DNA of 64,000 bases, taken from contig JAJPIZ010000008.1 of assembly GCA_021324435.1 (NCBI GenBank), forward strand, positions 62,001 to 126,000, given 5' to 3'. Below the pieces are notes generated by a model. The model did no database searches. It worked only from the letters and a program-made list of their open reading frames with translations, and had not been told where the DNA came from. Positions within the stretch are counted from its first letter, which is position 1; each line of letters starts with the position of its first letter. Source of the DNA: Anaerolineae bacterium (GTDB lineage: Bacteria > Chloroflexota > Anaerolineae > Anaerolineales > Villigracilaceae). This document shows, in pieces, positions 14,584 through 26,428 of the stretch. The translations under genes and the position numbers were made by a program.

Positions 14584-14604
14584 TAAAATTAGGACACTTG
14601 ATAT

Positions 14605-14688
14605 CTGGCGATGAGGCTCGCCGCAACCGTCGAATTGACTGATAGCCTCTACTGAAGAGAATCCCTCAGTAGAGGCTATTTATTTTGT
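14605..14688 (+). promoter_or_regulatory. Fluoride riboswitch (crcB motif) with terminator expression platform
   Basis: The 5' aptamer strand GGCGATGAGGCTCGCC (14607-14622) and the later CTGATAGCCTCTACTG match the fluoride riboswitch, whose known members carry GGCGATGAGGCCCGCC and GATGGCCTCTACTG. AGGC and GCCT can form the required pseudoknot. Immediately after, ATAGCCTCTACTGA (14642-14655) pairs perfectly with TCAGTAGAGGCTAT (14666-14679), followed by TTATTTT, forming a terminator that uses the aptamer's 3' strand. Fluoride binding should prevent termination and switch on the operon downstream, which includes crcB. Confidence 0.93.
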
Positions 14689-14705
14689 CTAATGCGAGAA
14701 AAACG

Positions 14706-15281
14706 ATGGCAGAGCATCTCATTGACATCAAAGTCCTGCAACCGGGCCGCCCGACCGGACAATATTTTTCACCGGATTCAGAATCCTTTAGGCTGGAGAA
14801 AATCATTTATCCCGAAGCAACCCTCCCGTTCGATGTGTGCATTCTCCCTACCGCGACGTCTCCCGAGCCGCCAAAAAAACTTCCACCTCTGACCGATACC
14901 GCCTCCAGCGGCCCCGAAGCCGTGACTCAATTGAACGAACAATTCTCTGCCGCCTTAGCCGAATCCCTCGCGCCCGATGAGCAGGTGCATAGCTGGGCAT
15001 TACTGCTCGCATGGTTTGACCGCAAGAAAGGCCCGGAGGTGTTGGTGGCAACCGAGCGCCGCCTTTTCCTGCTGTCGAACCATCCCTTTGAAATAGGGCT
15101 GTCACAAATTGCCACGCTCGAATACGCGAGTTCGATTCTGGAATCATGGCTGGCAATCAACTATATCCAAAAGGGCGCCCCTCATCGCAGAGTGATTTAC
15201 TTCCACCATCCCGCCCAAGACTCTTTTCGAGACTGTTATGAAGCAGCGCGGCGCTGCTTGGCGGTGATCCCGGCGGTATGA
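14706..15281 (+). CDS. Fluoride-operon protein: pyrophosphatase-like N-terminus plus PH-like domain
   Basis: This is a 191-residue protein, first gene after the riboswitch. Residues about 3-50 (LIDIKVLQPGRPTGQYF, then FRLEKIIYPEATLPFDV) resemble the beginning of a family I inorganic pyrophosphatase, but the catalytic DGDPxD region is absent, so this would be a truncated, non-catalytic relic. Residues about 95-185 (EQVHSWALLLAWF, VLVATERRLFLLS) resemble a bacterial PH-like domain. I chose ATG 14706; an upstream TTG at 14685 overlaps the terminator T-run. Both domain calls are by eye. The position points to a role in the fluoride response; the function is unknown. Confidence 0.6.
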   Translation: MAEHLIDIKVLQPGRPTGQYFSPDSESFRLEKIIYPEATLPFDVCILPTATSPEPPKKLPPLTDTASSGPEAVTQLNEQFSAALAESLAPDEQVHSWALLLAWFDRKKGPEVLVATERRLFLLSNHPFEIGLSQIATLEYASSILESWLAINYIQKGAPHRRVIYFHHPAQDSFRDCYEAARRCLAVIPAV

Positions 15282-20212: not shown

Positions 20213-21523
<1,311 letters not shown>

Positions 21524-21532
21524 TTATAGGCT

Positions 21533-21751
21533 TTATGAGCCTGCCATGTTCTCCAGAAGGTAACTCACAATGAAAGACAATGCAATAAAGAATGTAAATG
21601 TCACCAGTGCGGCCTCTATCGCCAGCTTCATCGGTTTCTTTTTGTCTGGATAATGATGTAGGTATTCACCATACGTGATGATAAATGCCATGGCAGAGGC
21701 GAGTGGAGAAAAGATCAGGGCGATCCCAACTGAAATTGGAACAAATTTCAT
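21533..21751 (-). CDS. Small two-helix membrane protein of the second fluoride operon
   Basis: This is a 72-residue protein starting at ATG 21751, 15 bases after the MFS stop codon; a longer in-frame extension runs into the MFS gene and is rejected. It has two hydrophobic segments (about residues 2-25 and 44-68) separated by a charged loop (YLHHYPDKKKPMK). It lies between the MFS transporter and enolase, in the transcript that begins with a fluoride riboswitch. I do not recognise the family. It could be a helper subunit of the transporter or an independent small membrane protein. Confidence 0.7.
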   Translation of the reverse strand: MKFVPISVGIALIFSPLASAMAFIITYGEYLHHYPDKKKPMKLAIEAALVTFTFFIALSFIVSYLLENMAGS

Positions 21752-21765
21752 GGCGAGCAAATATC

Positions 21766-22980
21766 CTATGGAACTTCCGGCCTTGACGGCGGTCGCCGCG
21801 TTTGACGGGCAACAATGAAGAATAGCGGCACGGCAGCCAACTGCGTGACAACTGAAAAGGTGATCAAGGCTGACAACGAGACGCCATAAAGAAAACCGAT
21901 TGCGGCGCTGCCCAGGAACCAAAAGACTCCATAACCTGCGGTGAACAATCCGTAGGCCGAGGCGCGGCGTTCCGGCGCGACCATCGGCGCGACTGCCGCT
22001 GGGATGATGGATTCGTGCACACCCATGCCCAAGCCCCAGATCGCCATGCCGATCAGCGCGGGCCAGAAGCCGCCGAGGAATACCAACGGCGCGAACAGGG
22101 CGGCGATCAATGTGAGAGCAATCAATACGCTAAAGCCAAAGCGGTCATAAAGCCGTCCGAAGACCAGCGAGCCTGTCCCGCTGACGCCCATCGCCACAGC
22201 GTAGAACACGGGGACAAGATCTGGCACGACGATAGAGGCTTGGGCAAAATGATAGGCGATCAGAGGAAAGTCTGCGAAGCCTGCCGCGACCAGTACCGCG
22301 CCGGCCAGATACAGCCAGAAGGCGCGTGGCAGTCCACGCGGTTGAACGTTCGGGAGATTGGTTTCCATTTCTTCAGGATGCGGATAGGTTCTGAAGGCCA
22401 GCATCAGCAAACTGAAGTTGATGACCGCAGGAATCGCTAATGCCGCGAAAGCGAGTCGGTAGTCGCCGCGCAAGGCCAGGACCCACGCGACCGCTAGAGG
22501 TCCGAACAGAGCGCCGAATTGATCCAACGCTTCGTGCAGACCGAACACCCATCCGACACCGATCTGCTTTCCGGCGTGAGACAACATCACATCGCGCGGC
22601 GGGTTGCGCGTGGCCTTGCCGACGCGTTCGAGGATGATCAGCACAGCCGCCATTGGCCAGTTCCCGGCCAGAGCAAGCAGGGGCACGGCAGACATCTGAA
22701 CCGCGTAACCGATGATCGTGATGGGCCAGAATTTTTGCGTGCGATCCGCAAGGCGGCCCGAAACAAGACGCAAGCCATAGCCGAGCAATTCTCCAAAGCC
22801 TGTGACCACGCCGACAGTAAAAGCGCTGGCTTGCAAATGAGCCAGATAAGGACCGAGGATACTGCGCGAACCTTCATACGTGAAATCGGCAAAGAAACTT
22901 AAAATGCCGATTAGAATCACGAACTTGAACGCTGTCTGTTGGATGATTGTTGGCTTGGAGATAGTTGAATCATTGTTCAT
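21766..22980 (-). CDS. MFS transporter controlled by a fluoride riboswitch
   Basis: This is a 404-residue major facilitator with about 12 transmembrane segments. The start is ATG 22980, preceded by AAAGGAC, just behind the riboswitch terminator; the longer reading frame starts inside the terminator and is rejected. An early acidic motif, FFADFTYEGSRSILGPYL, and the loop GRLADRTQ are the typical substrate and A-motif regions. The second half has GRLYDRFGFSVL. Its place in a fluoride-controlled operon suggests export of fluoride or of a damaged or fluorinated metabolite, but MFS fluoride export is not established to my knowledge. Confidence 0.88.
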   Translation of the reverse strand: MNNDSTISKPTIIQQTAFKFVILIGILSFFADFTYEGSRSILGPYLAHLQASAFTVGVVTGFGELLGYGLRLVSGRLADRTQKFWPITIIGYAVQMSAVPLLALAGNWPMAAVLIILERVGKATRNPPRDVMLSHAGKQIGVGWVFGLHEALDQFGALFGPLAVAWVLALRGDYRLAFAALAIPAVINFSLLMLAFRTYPHPEEMETNLPNVQPRGLPRAFWLYLAGAVLVAAGFADFPLIAYHFAQASIVVPDLVPVFYAVAMGVSGTGSLVFGRLYDRFGFSVLIALTLIAALFAPLVFLGGFWPALIGMAIWGLGMGVHESIIPAAVAPMVAPERRASAYGLFTAGYGVFWFLGSAAIGFLYGVSLSALITFSVVTQLAAVPLFFIVARQTRRPPSRPEVP

Positions 22981-23008
22981 AAATATGTCCTTTGTTCCGG
23001 GTGCTGGC

Positions 23009-23108
23009 AAGAAAATAGCCTCTACCAGCAATCGTTTTGGTAGAGGCTATCATTCGGCGAATTCCGAAAAAGGCTTTTTTCTTTCACACTGACGAGCCTC
23101 ATCGTCAA
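23009..23108 (-). promoter_or_regulatory. Second fluoride riboswitch (crcB motif) with terminator
   Basis: On the minus strand GACGATGAGGCTCGTC (23106 to 23091) matches the 5' aptamer strand, and GATAGCCTCTACC (about 23051 to 23039) matches the 3' strand. The 3' strand can instead pair in the terminator ATAGCCTCTACCA (23050 to 23038) / TGGTAGAGGCTAT (23027 to 23015), followed by TTTCTT. The variable joining region differs from the first copy, but the core and switching logic are the same. It controls the MFS, small membrane protein and probably enolase genes. Confidence 0.92.
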
Positions 23109-23138
23109 TGTGCCTCGAATATTTGATTGTCGAAAAAA

Positions 23139-23147
23139 ATTATACCA
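23139..23147 (-). promoter_or_regulatory. Extended -10 promoter of the second fluoride operon
   Basis: On the minus strand the sequence reads TGGTATAAT, an extended -10 element with a perfect TATAAT. It lies about 33 bases ahead of the riboswitch. No strong -35 is visible. Confidence 0.65.
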
Positions 23148-23879: not shown

Positions 23880-25145
23880 ATGGCATTCATCAGCGAGTTG
23901 ATCGGCCGCCCGGTGACAGATGTTGACGGGACCCGCATCGGGGTCCTGAAAGATTTGATAGCGCGCTCATATAAAGAATTTTCGCATCCGGTTGTGGATG
24001 CAATTATTGTGCACGGTGAAATGGGGGATCAGGCCATTCCCTATTCAGATTTAGCGGCCCTGCTTTCTGCCGCCATCCCGTTGAAGCGGCCCATGGCCGA
24101 GATTGCCGCTTACGAGTTCCGCGAGGACGACATTCGCCTCGTCGAGGATGTGCTCGACAAGCAGATCCTCGACACCGACGGCGCGCGCGTCGTGCGGGTC
24201 AATGACATCGAACTCGTGCGCGTCAACGGCAATGTGATTGTCAGCAACGTAGACATCGGCGTGCTGGGGATTCTGCGCCGACTCGGGCTCGAGAAGATGG
24301 GACGCTGGATCGCGCAACGCCTCAAATTGGACCTCACGGCGGGCACCATTTCGTGGCAATTTGTCGAACCCCTGACTCATGACCAGTCCATGCGGCTGAA
24401 AGTCCCCGCGGAAAAACTGGCCGAACTGCATCCCTCAGATATCGCCGAGATTATTTCTGATCTCAACCGCGCCGAGCACAGCGACCTGCTCCATAAACTT
24501 GACATCAAACAACTTGCCGATACCCTCGAAGAGGTCGAGCCGGATTTTCAGGCGAATCTGATCGAACATTTTACCGATGAAAAGGTGGCCGATGTGCTTG
24601 AGGAAATGTCGCCCGACGAGGCGGCAGATCTTTTGAGCGAATTGCCGCCCGAACGAAGCAATGACTTGCTCAAGTTAATGGACAAGGAGGAAGCCGAAGA
24701 GGTCCAGGAATTGTTGCGGTATGAGGAAGATACGGCTGGCGGTTTGATGACGACCGAATACGTCAGTGTCTCCCCGAATATGACCGCCGCGCAGGCGATT
24801 GACCATCTTCGCAAAGTCGGCGAGGACGCGGAACTGGTCTATTATGTTTATGTCACTGACAATCAGGAGCACTTGATCGGCGTCTTTTCATTGAGCGATT
24901 TGATCGTTGCCAAGCCCGAAACCCCGATCACAGACTTCATGCACAAGCGCGTGGTGAGCGTTGACTTGGGGACAAAGCAGGATGAGATCGCTCAGATCAT
25001 TGCAAAATACAATCTGATCGCAGTGCCGGTCGTGGACGCTGAAAATAAAATGCACGGCATCGTCACCTCCGATGACGCCCTCGATAAAATCCTGCCGACC
25101 GCGTGGAAGAAGCGTCTGCCGCACTTCTTTGGAGCGCGCCCGTGA
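23880..25145 (+). CDS. PRC-barrel / MgtE-N / CBS protein lacking the MgtE channel
   Basis: This is a 421-residue soluble protein. Two PRC-barrel-like segments lie at about residues 5-80 (LIGRPVTDVDGTRIGVLKDL) and 90-165 (LDKQILDTDGARVVRVNDI). A MgtE N-terminal superhelical domain follows (about 185-285, with the repeats LHPSDIAEIISDL and MSPDEAADLLSELPPER), then a CBS pair (about 300-415; MTTEYVSVSPNMTAAQAI). The transmembrane channel of MgtE is missing. The MgtE N/CBS region is the Mg-sensing gate in MgtE, so this could be a detached sensor. It overlaps the NRAMP-related transporter gene by 4 bases, which suggests it regulates that transporter. Confidence 0.9.
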   Translation: MAFISELIGRPVTDVDGTRIGVLKDLIARSYKEFSHPVVDAIIVHGEMGDQAIPYSDLAALLSAAIPLKRPMAEIAAYEFREDDIRLVEDVLDKQILDTDGARVVRVNDIELVRVNGNVIVSNVDIGVLGILRRLGLEKMGRWIAQRLKLDLTAGTISWQFVEPLTHDQSMRLKVPAEKLAELHPSDIAEIISDLNRAEHSDLLHKLDIKQLADTLEEVEPDFQANLIEHFTDEKVADVLEEMSPDEAADLLSELPPERSNDLLKLMDKEEAEEVQELLRYEEDTAGGLMTTEYVSVSPNMTAAQAIDHLRKVGEDAELVYYVYVTDNQEHLIGVFSLSDLIVAKPETPITDFMHKRVVSVDLGTKQDEIAQIIAKYNLIAVPVVDAENKMHGIVTSDDALDKILPTAWKKRLPHFFGARP

Positions 25146-26428
25146 ACAACGCACTCACACTTCTCCGCGAGAAATGGATGGCGAATCGCTGGATGCGACG
25201 CCTCATCCTGCTTTTCTCCGTCTTTGGTCCCGCGACGATTGCCGCCATGGCCGATAATGACGCCAGCGGCGTCGCAACCTATTCCATCGCAGGCGCGACG
25301 CTCGGCTATCCGATTCTATTTTTGCTCGTGATCGTAACGATCTTGCTGGCGATCACACAGGAAATGGGAATGCGCCTGACATTGGTCGCACGCCGAGGCC
25401 TGGCGGATTTGATCCGCGAAAAATATGGCATAAAAGTGTCATTGTTTATATTTGCAGGCCTGCTGATTTCCAACCTTGGAACGATTGCGCTTGATCTTTG
25501 GATAGCCAAATCCACCAGCCAAATGCTTGGGCTTCCAGTCATTCCAGTTTTACTGTTGTTGTTGCTGTTTATTTTTCTGCTGGTCACAAGAGGCAACTAT
25601 AAATTTGTCCAGAGTATGATGCTGATTGTTTCGCTGTTCTATTTGATGTATGTGATCTCTGCGATCAAAGCCATGCCCGATTGGGGTCTGGCTTTTGGAA
25701 ATCTGCTCTATCCTCACGGCGTGGAATGGACGAAAGAATATACCCGCAACTATCTGTTGATCGGCATGGGCGTACTCGGAACTACGATTACGCCGTGGGG
25801 CCAGTTCTTCATCAGTAGTTTTGCGTTTGATAAGAAGATGGACAAGGGCAAGATTATCTATTCCCAGTTGGAAACATACTGGGGCGCGTTGATTACCGAT
25901 ATCTTCTCCTTCTTTATGATTGTTGCAACTGCCGCGACATTATTCGTGCATCACATTCCGCTTTTGTCCGGTGAGCAGGCGGCTCTTGCGATTGAACCTT
26001 TTACAGGCAAACTGGCCGGCTTGCTCTTTGCGCTTGGAATGCTGAATGCCTCGTTGATGGGACTGGTGATCATTCCGCTTTCCACCGCCTATGCTTTCTC
26101 CGAGTTCTTTGGGCTTTCGGGCAGTTTGGATACCGGTTTCCAAAAAAGTAAAACGTTTTATACGTTGTTTATCCTTCAACTTGCCCTGGCCGCGGTGATT
26201 ATCTTTATCCCCAATATCTCATTGGTGCCTTTGACTGAAGGAACGCAGATACTAAGCGCCATGATCCTGCCGCTGGTCTTCTACTATCTCATCAAATTGA
26301 CAAGTAGCAAGTCTCTGATGGGCGAGTATGTGAACAACCGCTTCCAGAAAAATTTTACATCCTGGGCCTCGGTGTTTATTGTGATTGCATCGGCGTTTAC
26401 GGTCGCGGCCGTAATTTTCAATTGGTAG
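25142..26428 (+). CDS. NRAMP-related divalent metal transporter (possible Mg/Mn type)
   Basis: This is a 428-residue membrane protein with about 11 hydrophobic segments. I start it at GTG 25142, which overlaps the stop of the MgtE-like gene. The first helix reads FGPATIAAMADNDASG: the canonical NRAMP DPGN site is replaced by DNDA. The helix-6 metal site, usually containing Met and His (MPH), reads TTITPWGQFF. These changes are like those in NRAMP-related magnesium transporters, which carry hydrated Mg, rather than in classical Mn/Fe carriers. The fusion-like pairing with an MgtE-type sensor supports a Mg or Mn role. The family assignment is firm and the substrate is inferred. Confidence 0.88.
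   Translation: MNNALTLLREKWMANRWMRRLILLFSVFGPATIAAMADNDASGVATYSIAGATLGYPILFLLVIVTILLAITQEMGMRLTLVARRGLADLIREKYGIKVSLFIFAGLLISNLGTIALDLWIAKSTSQMLGLPVIPVLLLLLLFIFLLVTRGNYKFVQSMMLIVSLFYLMYVISAIKAMPDWGLAFGNLLYPHGVEWTKEYTRNYLLIGMGVLGTTITPWGQFFISSFAFDKKMDKGKIIYSQLETYWGALITDIFSFFMIVATAATLFVHHIPLLSGEQAALAIEPFTGKLAGLLFALGMLNASLMGLVIIPLSTAYAFSEFFGLSGSLDTGFQKSKTFYTLFILQLALAAVIIFIPNISLVPLTEGTQILSAMILPLVFYYLIKLTSSKSLMGEYVNNRFQKNFTSWASVFIVIASAFTVAAVIFNW

Follow-up and report, generated by a model that had tools for sequence, protein, structure and literature searches.

Can a leader RNA that falls outside the Rfam model of the fluoride riboswitch still act as a fluoride switch, and what does it control? This question is raised by an operon in the window, as we call the whole stretch of 64,000 nucleotides (nt) of an Anaerolineae bacterium that was analysed (contig JAJPIZ010000008.1). 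On the minus strand, a structured leader precedes a gene for a major facilitator superfamily (MFS) transporter, a gene for a 72-residue (72-aa) hydrophobic protein, and eno. Enolase is a fluoride-sensitive glycolytic enzyme often encoded in fluoride-riboswitch operons, as stated in a 2024 review (PMC11139923), and control of eno by a riboswitch is already known. The mechanism here is most likely this known fluoride ON switch with a spare enolase. We give a probability of about 87% to the reading that an enlarged aptamer of the fluoride type works as a transcriptional ON switch for the MFS, 72-aa and spare-enolase operon. What appears new, judging from sequence comparison, is the enlarged aptamer subfamily and a widespread MFS family linked to fluoride.

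Organization of the operon and its leader

The elements follow each other in the order promoter (TGGTATAAT), structured leader, hairpin with a U tract, AAAGGA, MFS gene, 72-aa open reading frame (ORF) and eno (Table 1). The gaps between the three genes are 14 and 39 nt. The sequence-only reading of this DNA had described an aptamer-like RNA, a terminator, an extended -10 element, the MFS gene, the 72-residue protein and eno with short gaps, and all of these were located. The presence of the leader and the three genes at this place is thus confirmed. The eno gene belongs to the operon as claimed, but it lies outside the range given for the unit (21533-23147).

Table 1. Positions of the operon, its leader elements and the canonical riboswitch in the window
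Feature	Position	Strand	Basis or remark
Extended -10 promoter, no clear -35	23139..23147	-	sequence
Enlarged fluoride-type aptamer	23037..23119	-	R1 and R2 covariance models; covariation in P1 and P3
Aptamer P1, 10 base pairs (bp)	23112-23103/23094-23085	-	
Aptamer J1/3, 16 nt	23084-23069	-	
Aptamer P3	23068-23064/23057-23053	-	
Aptamer UGAU motif	23052-23049	-	
Aptamer pseudoknot	23100-23095 with 23048-23043	-	
Intrinsic terminator, perfect 12-bp hairpin and U tract	23010..23050	-	sequence
Ribosome-binding-like AAAGGA ahead of MFS start	22988..22993	-	sequence
MFS transporter, 404 aa	21766..22980	-	ATG 22980, stop 21766; fluoride-riboswitch-associated MFS family
72-aa hydrophobic protein	21533..21751	-	two long hydrophobic stretches, judged by eye
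eno, enolase, 426 aa, second genome copy	20213..21493	-	TIGR01060 equivalog
Terminator-like hairpin overlapping eno end	20217..20237	-	consensus scan only
Canonical fluoride riboswitch	14598..14658	+	RF01734 43.1 bits, gathering 34

The MFS protein matched PF07690 (MFS_1) in Pfam at 88.5 bits (cut-off 33.4), and the enolase matched TIGR01060 in NCBIfam at 650.7 bits (cut-off 300). The 72-aa protein matched no Pfam or NCBIfam family. A homologue, 68% identical, is encoded in an aptamer-led operon of genome G030 (locus L129, 5598-5819), and no further homologue was found among the loci collected. The idea that this ORF is a reading artefact was dropped in view of that homologue. The genome has two enolases that are 64% identical. 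The other copy (C28:186117-187382) lies on another contig, and only the window copy sits in the present operon. The extra enolase that had been proposed from the sequence is therefore real, and it may serve as a replacement enolase.

The 5' arm of the terminator (AUAGCCUCUACC) includes the pseudoknot strand of the aptamer and the last two bases of UGAU, and the 3' arm (23026-23015) is followed by the U tract. The folding energy of the 155-nt leader was -51.2 kcal/mol, compared with -32.7 ± 3.6 kcal/mol for shuffled sequences (z = -5.1). The leader also resembles the canonical riboswitch of the same window. CGAUGAGGCUCG and UGAUAGCCUCUAC are identical in both sites, GACGAUGAGGCUCGUC and UGAUAGCCUCUACC agree by eye, and the GAUG and UGAU...CUAC motifs are the same. 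In the known structure, GAUG in the P1 loop and UGAU...CUAC contact or frame the Mg2+-fluoride.

For a covariance model (R1), 15 canonical fluoride aptamers were taken by sequence pattern from the genome itself and from the loci of MFS relatives; the enlarged site of the window was excluded. The E-values of R1 and of the later model R2 are rough. In a search of 86 sources (0.83 Mb), R1 matched 23036-23115 at 25.7 bits (E 2.2e-4). At E≤1, R1 had only two matches in the window: the enlarged site and, at 60.1 bits, the canonical site, which had been among its training sequences.

An enlarged aptamer subfamily

Enlarged sites were found 12 times in nine genomes of one bacterial family (G000, G004, G017, G030, G042, G061, G079, G098, and G106), with P1 shorter or mismatched in some of them. 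By sequence comparison, the leader aptamer is a member of this outlying subfamily of fluoride aptamers, in which P1 has about 10 bp and J1/3 reaches 16 nt. The second model, R2, was made from four enlarged sites including that of the window, where it scored 98.0 bits on a sequence it was trained with; it recovered the canonical riboswitch of the window at 22.6 bits. Of 152 genomes of the family, 42 had an R2 match at E≤0.1; at E≤1e-4, 23 of the 396 genomes of the class had one. Among sites that R2 was not trained on, those in G079 (90.4 bits), G042 (87.8 bits), and G030 (87.8 bits) scored highest, followed by G061, G004, and G090 at 35-54 bits. Weaker matches were a mixture of canonical aptamers and places without a visible aptamer pattern. 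The UGAU motif reads UAAU in L127 and in one site of L128. In L018, L136, and L109, the lengthened J1/3 still ends in AAACC, so these sites look like intermediates.

For covariation, 19 sites were aligned to R2: the 12 enlarged sites, the intermediates L136 and L018, and five canonical aptamers. Standard pairs filled 94.6% of the paired cells, and 11 pairs (47 cells) changed on both sides. Slid controls gave 28-48% standard pairs (maximum 47.6%) and 2-6 double-changed cells, and shuffles (n = 500) never attained three of the five covariation measures. An alignment based on R2 leans towards that model; independent folding gave double changes in 8 of 12 pairs. Six pairs of P1 and four of P3 had double changes, with 94.2% and 91.7% of their cells paired, respectively. 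The six pairs of the pseudoknot were paired in 99.1% of cells, and one of them was double-changed. Separately, in one branch of the enlarged aptamers, AGGC immediately before P1 could pair with GCCU in J1/3 (window 23119-23069, minus strand). Covariation of this helix was not supported, as its three pairs are mostly conserved and each varies on one side.

The surroundings are conserved as well. A hairpin whose 5' arm is the pseudoknot strand, followed by a T-rich tail, was present in all 15 sites inspected without a shuffled control (the 12 enlarged sites including that of the window, L136, L018, and the canonical site of the window). Among the 12 other family sites (11 enlarged and L136), a TGN-type -10 element lies 24-31 nt upstream in nine, a plain TATAAT in one, and two had no -10 element by the pattern used. 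The order promoter, aptamer, terminator was found in eight genomes, including that of the window, and the layout upstream of the MFS gene is the same in relatives of the same genus and family. It is because of these relatives that we accept the leader as an aptamer; without them this would be unacceptable. Sequence and comparison together thus bear out the second fluoride-type aptamer with its own terminator that had been proposed.

The genes behind such aptamers recur in similar combinations. The MFS gene comes first in G042 (L128), where a second aptamer, a 161-aa gene and eno follow, in G098 (L132; two genes of about 145 aa, then eno), and in L018 (193-aa gene, then eno). It also follows an aptamer in G017 (L131) and G004 (L017), and in G079 (L127) and G106 (L133), where the contig ends. 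A small gene followed by eno was found in G061 (L130, also L104; 176 aa) and L173 (137 aa), and eno alone in G090 (L136, also L106) and G038 (L109). In G030 (L129), the aptamer leads an apparently broken MFS gene, a second MFS gene, a CBS protein, a 139-aa gene and the 72-aa homologue. This first MFS gene seems reduced to an N-terminal piece (L129 3107-3445), and the rest of the operon continues. A third enlarged aptamer of G042 leads a 562-aa P-type-ATPase-like ORF (E1-E2 ATPase, HAD) and a dynamin-like ORF (L128 8432-12090).

The small genes include a family of about 145 aa with the motifs LDG..ENG, SWANLLD, and VHPELS, which lies behind fluoride aptamers or MFS genes and often right before eno. 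Members are L132 4024-4464 and 4534-4971, L128 5005-5490, L130 3328-3858, L129 5182-5601, L017 6313-6792, L018 6187-6768, L173 1600-2013, and L152 2526-3020. A weak member (28%) in L027 (8341-8709, labelled Deltaproteobacteria) lies directly behind an Rfam fluoride riboswitch. None of the nine members scanned had a Pfam family above cut-off. The window had no match to this family at E≤0.1; the 72-aa gene occupies its place.

The MFS family and fluoride riboswitches

The titles of the best 80 of 165 loci of MFS relatives (60-87% identity) name Chloroflexi, Acidobacteria, Actinobacteria, Bacillota, Alpha-, Beta-, and Deltaproteobacteria, and others. RF01734 was above its cut-off in 38 of 40 genomes with MFS relatives, compared with 4 of 14 control genomes. 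Of 85 MFS loci (own locus and the duplicates L017 and L034 left out, matches up to E 0.17 counted), 17 had an R1 match directly upstream, on the strand of the MFS gene and no more than 400 nt away, 47 had one elsewhere in the locus, and 21 had none. At E≤0.01, 52 of 76 loci had a match (duplicates L034, L058, and L090 left out) and 24 had none, several of these being incomplete. Because R1 was trained mostly on the same loci, the count was repeated with RF01734 at its gathering score. In two samples of every fourth locus, 12 of 14 and 11 of 16 MFS loci (23 of 30) had a match within about 5 kb. The sampled loci held 46 matches in 285 kb (161 per Mb), whereas the 40 MFS-bearing genomes held 284 matches at a looser threshold (E≤0.05) in about 184 Mb (1.5 per Mb). 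The density near MFS genes is therefore roughly 100-fold the average of those genomes.

Among the 76 loci, eno occurred in 19, mutS-type genes in 27 and crcB in 10. Overall, the family is tied to fluoride riboswitches across phyla, in agreement with the earlier suggestion that the MFS protein is fluoride-related. Ancylobacter dichloromethanicus (G162) has at least 24 RF01734 matches in its genome, and 18 of those listed lie within about 55 kb of contig C49, where they form a fluoride island of very high density. Further MFS proteins, with 25-29% identity to that of the window, are encoded in aptamer-led operons at L129 3492-4724, L156 1-1470, and L157 187-1419. Those of L156 and L157 are directly behind the aptamer, and the L156 protein is fused to HEAT repeats. 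A cluster of dynamin-like proteins of about 600 aa was present in 16 of 77 clustered MFS loci, with Dynamin_N in L043 (7960-9696).

Could the MFS protein be a fluoride exporter?

The fluoride exporter types of bacteria named in the 2024 review are Fluc and CLC-F (PMC11139923). CrcB was found in 41 of 50 MFS-bearing genomes (50 of the 76). Of the nine without CrcB, six have CLC proteins, which are not necessarily of the fluoride type, and one of these (G170) had no riboswitch match at all. The other three have neither CrcB nor CLC: G151 (a Chloroflexi metagenome-assembled genome, L018), G152 (Desulfofundulus thermobenzoicus DSM 14055, L019), and G173 (a Chloroflexi metagenome-assembled genome, L041). 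G151 and G173 may be incomplete. At E≤0.05, RF01734 had three, six and four matches in G151, G152, and G173, of which one, four and none were over the Rfam cut-off; the best match of G173 reached 33.8 bits (cut-off 34). The match directly ahead of the MFS gene is the one over cut-off in L018 (34.7 bits) and is below it in L041 (30.9 bits). In Desulfofundulus, the MFS gene shares a one-contig island with five RF01734 matches (four of them over cut-off), eno and further genes. The aptamer nearest to this MFS gene is divergent and none was detected immediately before it, so in this genome the argument from missing CrcB and CLC depends on the island and not on direct control.

We regard these genomes as suggestive evidence for export. 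Because of the proximity to riboswitches and the genomes without CrcB and CLC, the MFS protein is a candidate for a third fluoride exporter or for another transporter that relieves fluoride stress. A bolder proposal is that the family forms a third, phylum-hopping class of fluoride exporters, which would be the sole exporter in some genomes and, in the present family, would stand under an enlarged aptamer overlooked by Rfam. This is tentative, and we consider it doubtful on present sequence evidence. We see an even chance that the protein moves a solute disturbed by fluoride and not fluoride itself, such as the phosphoglycerates before enolase, phosphate or organic acids, metal-fluoride complexes, or protons. 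Three findings speak for such a solute: CrcB is present in most of the same genomes; the protein has an MFS fold whose invariant charged residues lie within or next to predicted helices; and in 9 of 76 loci, which come from several phyla, the MFS gene neighbours eno on one strand at a distance of up to 650 nt. The three genomes that have riboswitch matches and neither CrcB nor CLC speak against it.

The AlphaFold2 model of the protein (pLDDT 88.6) has a normal MFS fold, with Z up to 37.4 and Foldseek E of about 1e-9 to 1e-7 against solved structures. A profile search of solved chains gave no match at E≤1e-5 (best E 1.8, NorA), the fold searches placed the protein in the superfamily with no clear nearest subfamily, and Pfam and NCBIfam indicated no substrate. 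The charged residues D32, E36, R39, R71, E118, R119, R125, H149, E150, D153, D237, and H244 are invariant in 43 MFS sequences and lie in or beside the model helices 12-39, 53-81, 108-140, 142-171, and 238-248. In the model, this fits a coupling to protons and a small charged solute. An MFS family in fluoride-riboswitch islands, also where Fluc and CLC-F are missing, would offer a direct and cheap test for a third exporter.

Proposed mechanism and alternative explanations

Sequence and comparison support the aptamer, the terminator, the gene order, a layout kept in relatives, the second enolase, and the link between MFS genes and riboswitches. From these we infer the ligand (fluoride), the direction of switching, the use of the promoter, the extension of transcription into eno, and what the MFS protein does, as follows. 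Without fluoride, the strand AGCCUCUACC would pair downstream, the terminator would form and transcription would end before the MFS gene. With Mg2+-fluoride bound, AGCCUC would be held in the pseudoknot with GAGGCU of the P1 loop. The terminator could then not form, and RNA polymerase would read through the three genes. The membrane transporter would relieve fluoride stress and the extra enolase would offset the inhibition of the enzyme. The sequence-only reading, in which fluoride induces extra enolase together with an exporter, is thus partly supported.

Several results weigh against this mechanism. That reading expected a riboswitch model to match the leader; the Rfam covariance search gave no Fluoride match (RF01734) at the gathering score or at E≤5, but the canonical-trained R1 matched. 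We ascribe the Rfam miss to the longer P1 and J1/3, not to the absence of an aptamer. Five other Rfam models scored 13-18 bits at the leader, far under their gathering scores, and were taken as chance. In scans of the own genome, the site was listed neither by RF01734 at E≤10 (150 of 450 candidates scored) nor by R1, for which the most likely reason is that scoring was limited to 150 of 1286 candidates; the best R1 match besides the canonical site had 13.1 bits. The site fails membership of RF01734, having neither the gathering score nor a J1/3 of about 7 nt ending in AACC. Its J1/3 of 16 nt ends in GCCUUU before P3; being more than twice the canonical length and without AACC, it may mean a different binding pocket. 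The consensus scan listed neither the promoter, which has no good -35 hexamer, nor the leader terminator, whose loop of 12 nt exceeds the limit of 8 nt. The shuffles attained the observed pair count in 16 of 500 cases and the type count in 38 of 500, and support for the pseudoknot is mostly conservation, because only a single pair is double-changed.

The missing Rfam match would suit a mere attenuator or a chance hairpin that resembles an aptamer. Against the R1 match, the covariation and the element order kept in eight genomes, we find this scarcely credible. It is also conceivable that the fold was kept while its ligand or affinity changed, so that the enlarged aptamer answers to another ligand or needs far more fluoride than the canonical switch, which lies 8.4 kb away. 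The altered J1/3 would agree with such a change, as would the coexistence of both kinds in one genome, as though their tasks differed. We hold it to be improbable, since the P1-loop GAUG and UGAU...CUAC are unchanged in the window, the intermediates combine a long J1/3 with AAACC, and enlarged aptamers lead the usual fluoride genes. A somewhat stronger rival, still unlikely, is that eno is transcribed mainly from a constitutive promoter of its own and that the riboswitch matters for the MFS and 72-aa proteins only. A TATAAA-like stretch in the 39-nt gap just ahead of eno makes a weak internal promoter possible, although the consensus scan listed no promoter there at its threshold. Several relatives have a separate aptamer and promoter for eno or for its small partner gene, so that a transcription start close to eno seems usual; this nearer promoter is itself controlled by an aptamer. 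The short gaps, the lack of a listed terminator-like site between the genes (in a scan that can miss long-loop hairpins), and the separate second enolase, which would cover the basal need, favor readthrough from the fluoride switch.

Other genes in the window and in related loci

The canonical riboswitch of the window opens a convergent operon with a 198-aa ORF, two MutS_V proteins, CrcB, and a DUF190 and CBS protein. The 198-aa protein (window 14685-15281) had no Pfam match, and its N-terminus may be reminiscent of a degraded family I pyrophosphatase. A homologue lies behind an aptamer in L112. Beside the MFS operon, on the opposite strand (window 23880-26428), a protein with MgtE_N and CBS domains and no MgtE membrane domain listed is followed by an Nramp-type transporter. 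The two may form a pair for divalent metals that has a link with the fluoride genes. Elsewhere in Anaerolineae, aptamers lead DUF6062 proteins, by Pfam in L163 (1618-2364) and L167 (412-1425) and by likeness in L171 (1626-2372). These proteins were considered as dynamin relatives, which was rejected because Pfam gives DUF6062 for L163 and L167.

Comparison with known systems

No paper on an MFS gene under a fluoride riboswitch was found by titles and the beginnings of abstracts; the 2012 founding paper on the fluoride regulon may mention such genes. The word MFS is absent from the main texts of PMC11139923, PMC5533749, PMC2864571, PMC7266159, and PMC13273304, and the first two of these also lack "major facilitator". 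PMC11477304 and PMC12595759 have passages with "major facilitator superfamily" that make no link to the fluoride switch. The crcB-motif gene list of Weinberg 2010 (PMC2864571) names mutS, K+ or Cl- transport and formate hydrogen lyase.

Like Fluc/CrcB and CLC-F, the MFS transporter is predicted to be a membrane protein under fluoride-riboswitch control. It differs from both in having no Pfam match to CRCB or Voltage_CLC, and its role as an exporter is putative. It shares the overall MFS fold with NorA, SotB, G6PT, and SPNS2 (Z 33-37), and GlpT appears in the Foldseek list only, as a match of the fold. Identity to solved MFS transporters of drugs and of organic anions or phosphate is only about 13-17%. 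The closest parallel for the operon is the fluoride-induced operon of Enterobacter cloacae FRM, ppaC-uspA-eno-gpmA-crcB-orf5249 (PMC5533749), which likewise has a fluoride riboswitch ahead and a spare eno. In that case, the riboswitch was found by Rfam, and an MFS transporter is named nowhere in the main text of the paper.

The enlarged aptamer suggests that some members of the fluoride riboswitch class escape the Rfam model. It may also be seen as a natural experiment that tests how much remodelling of P1 and J1/3 a fixed fluoride pocket allows. Compared with RF01734, the crcB motif, the aptamer of the window has a P1 of about 10 bp instead of four, a 16-nt J1/3 without AACC, and a score under the Rfam threshold, and one enlarged branch adds a conserved match of AGGC in the 5' flank with its complement GCCU in J1/3. 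It shares with RF01734 the P1 loop motif, P3, the pseudoknot and the UGAU...CUAC strand, and in both a terminator competes for the strand of the pseudoknot.

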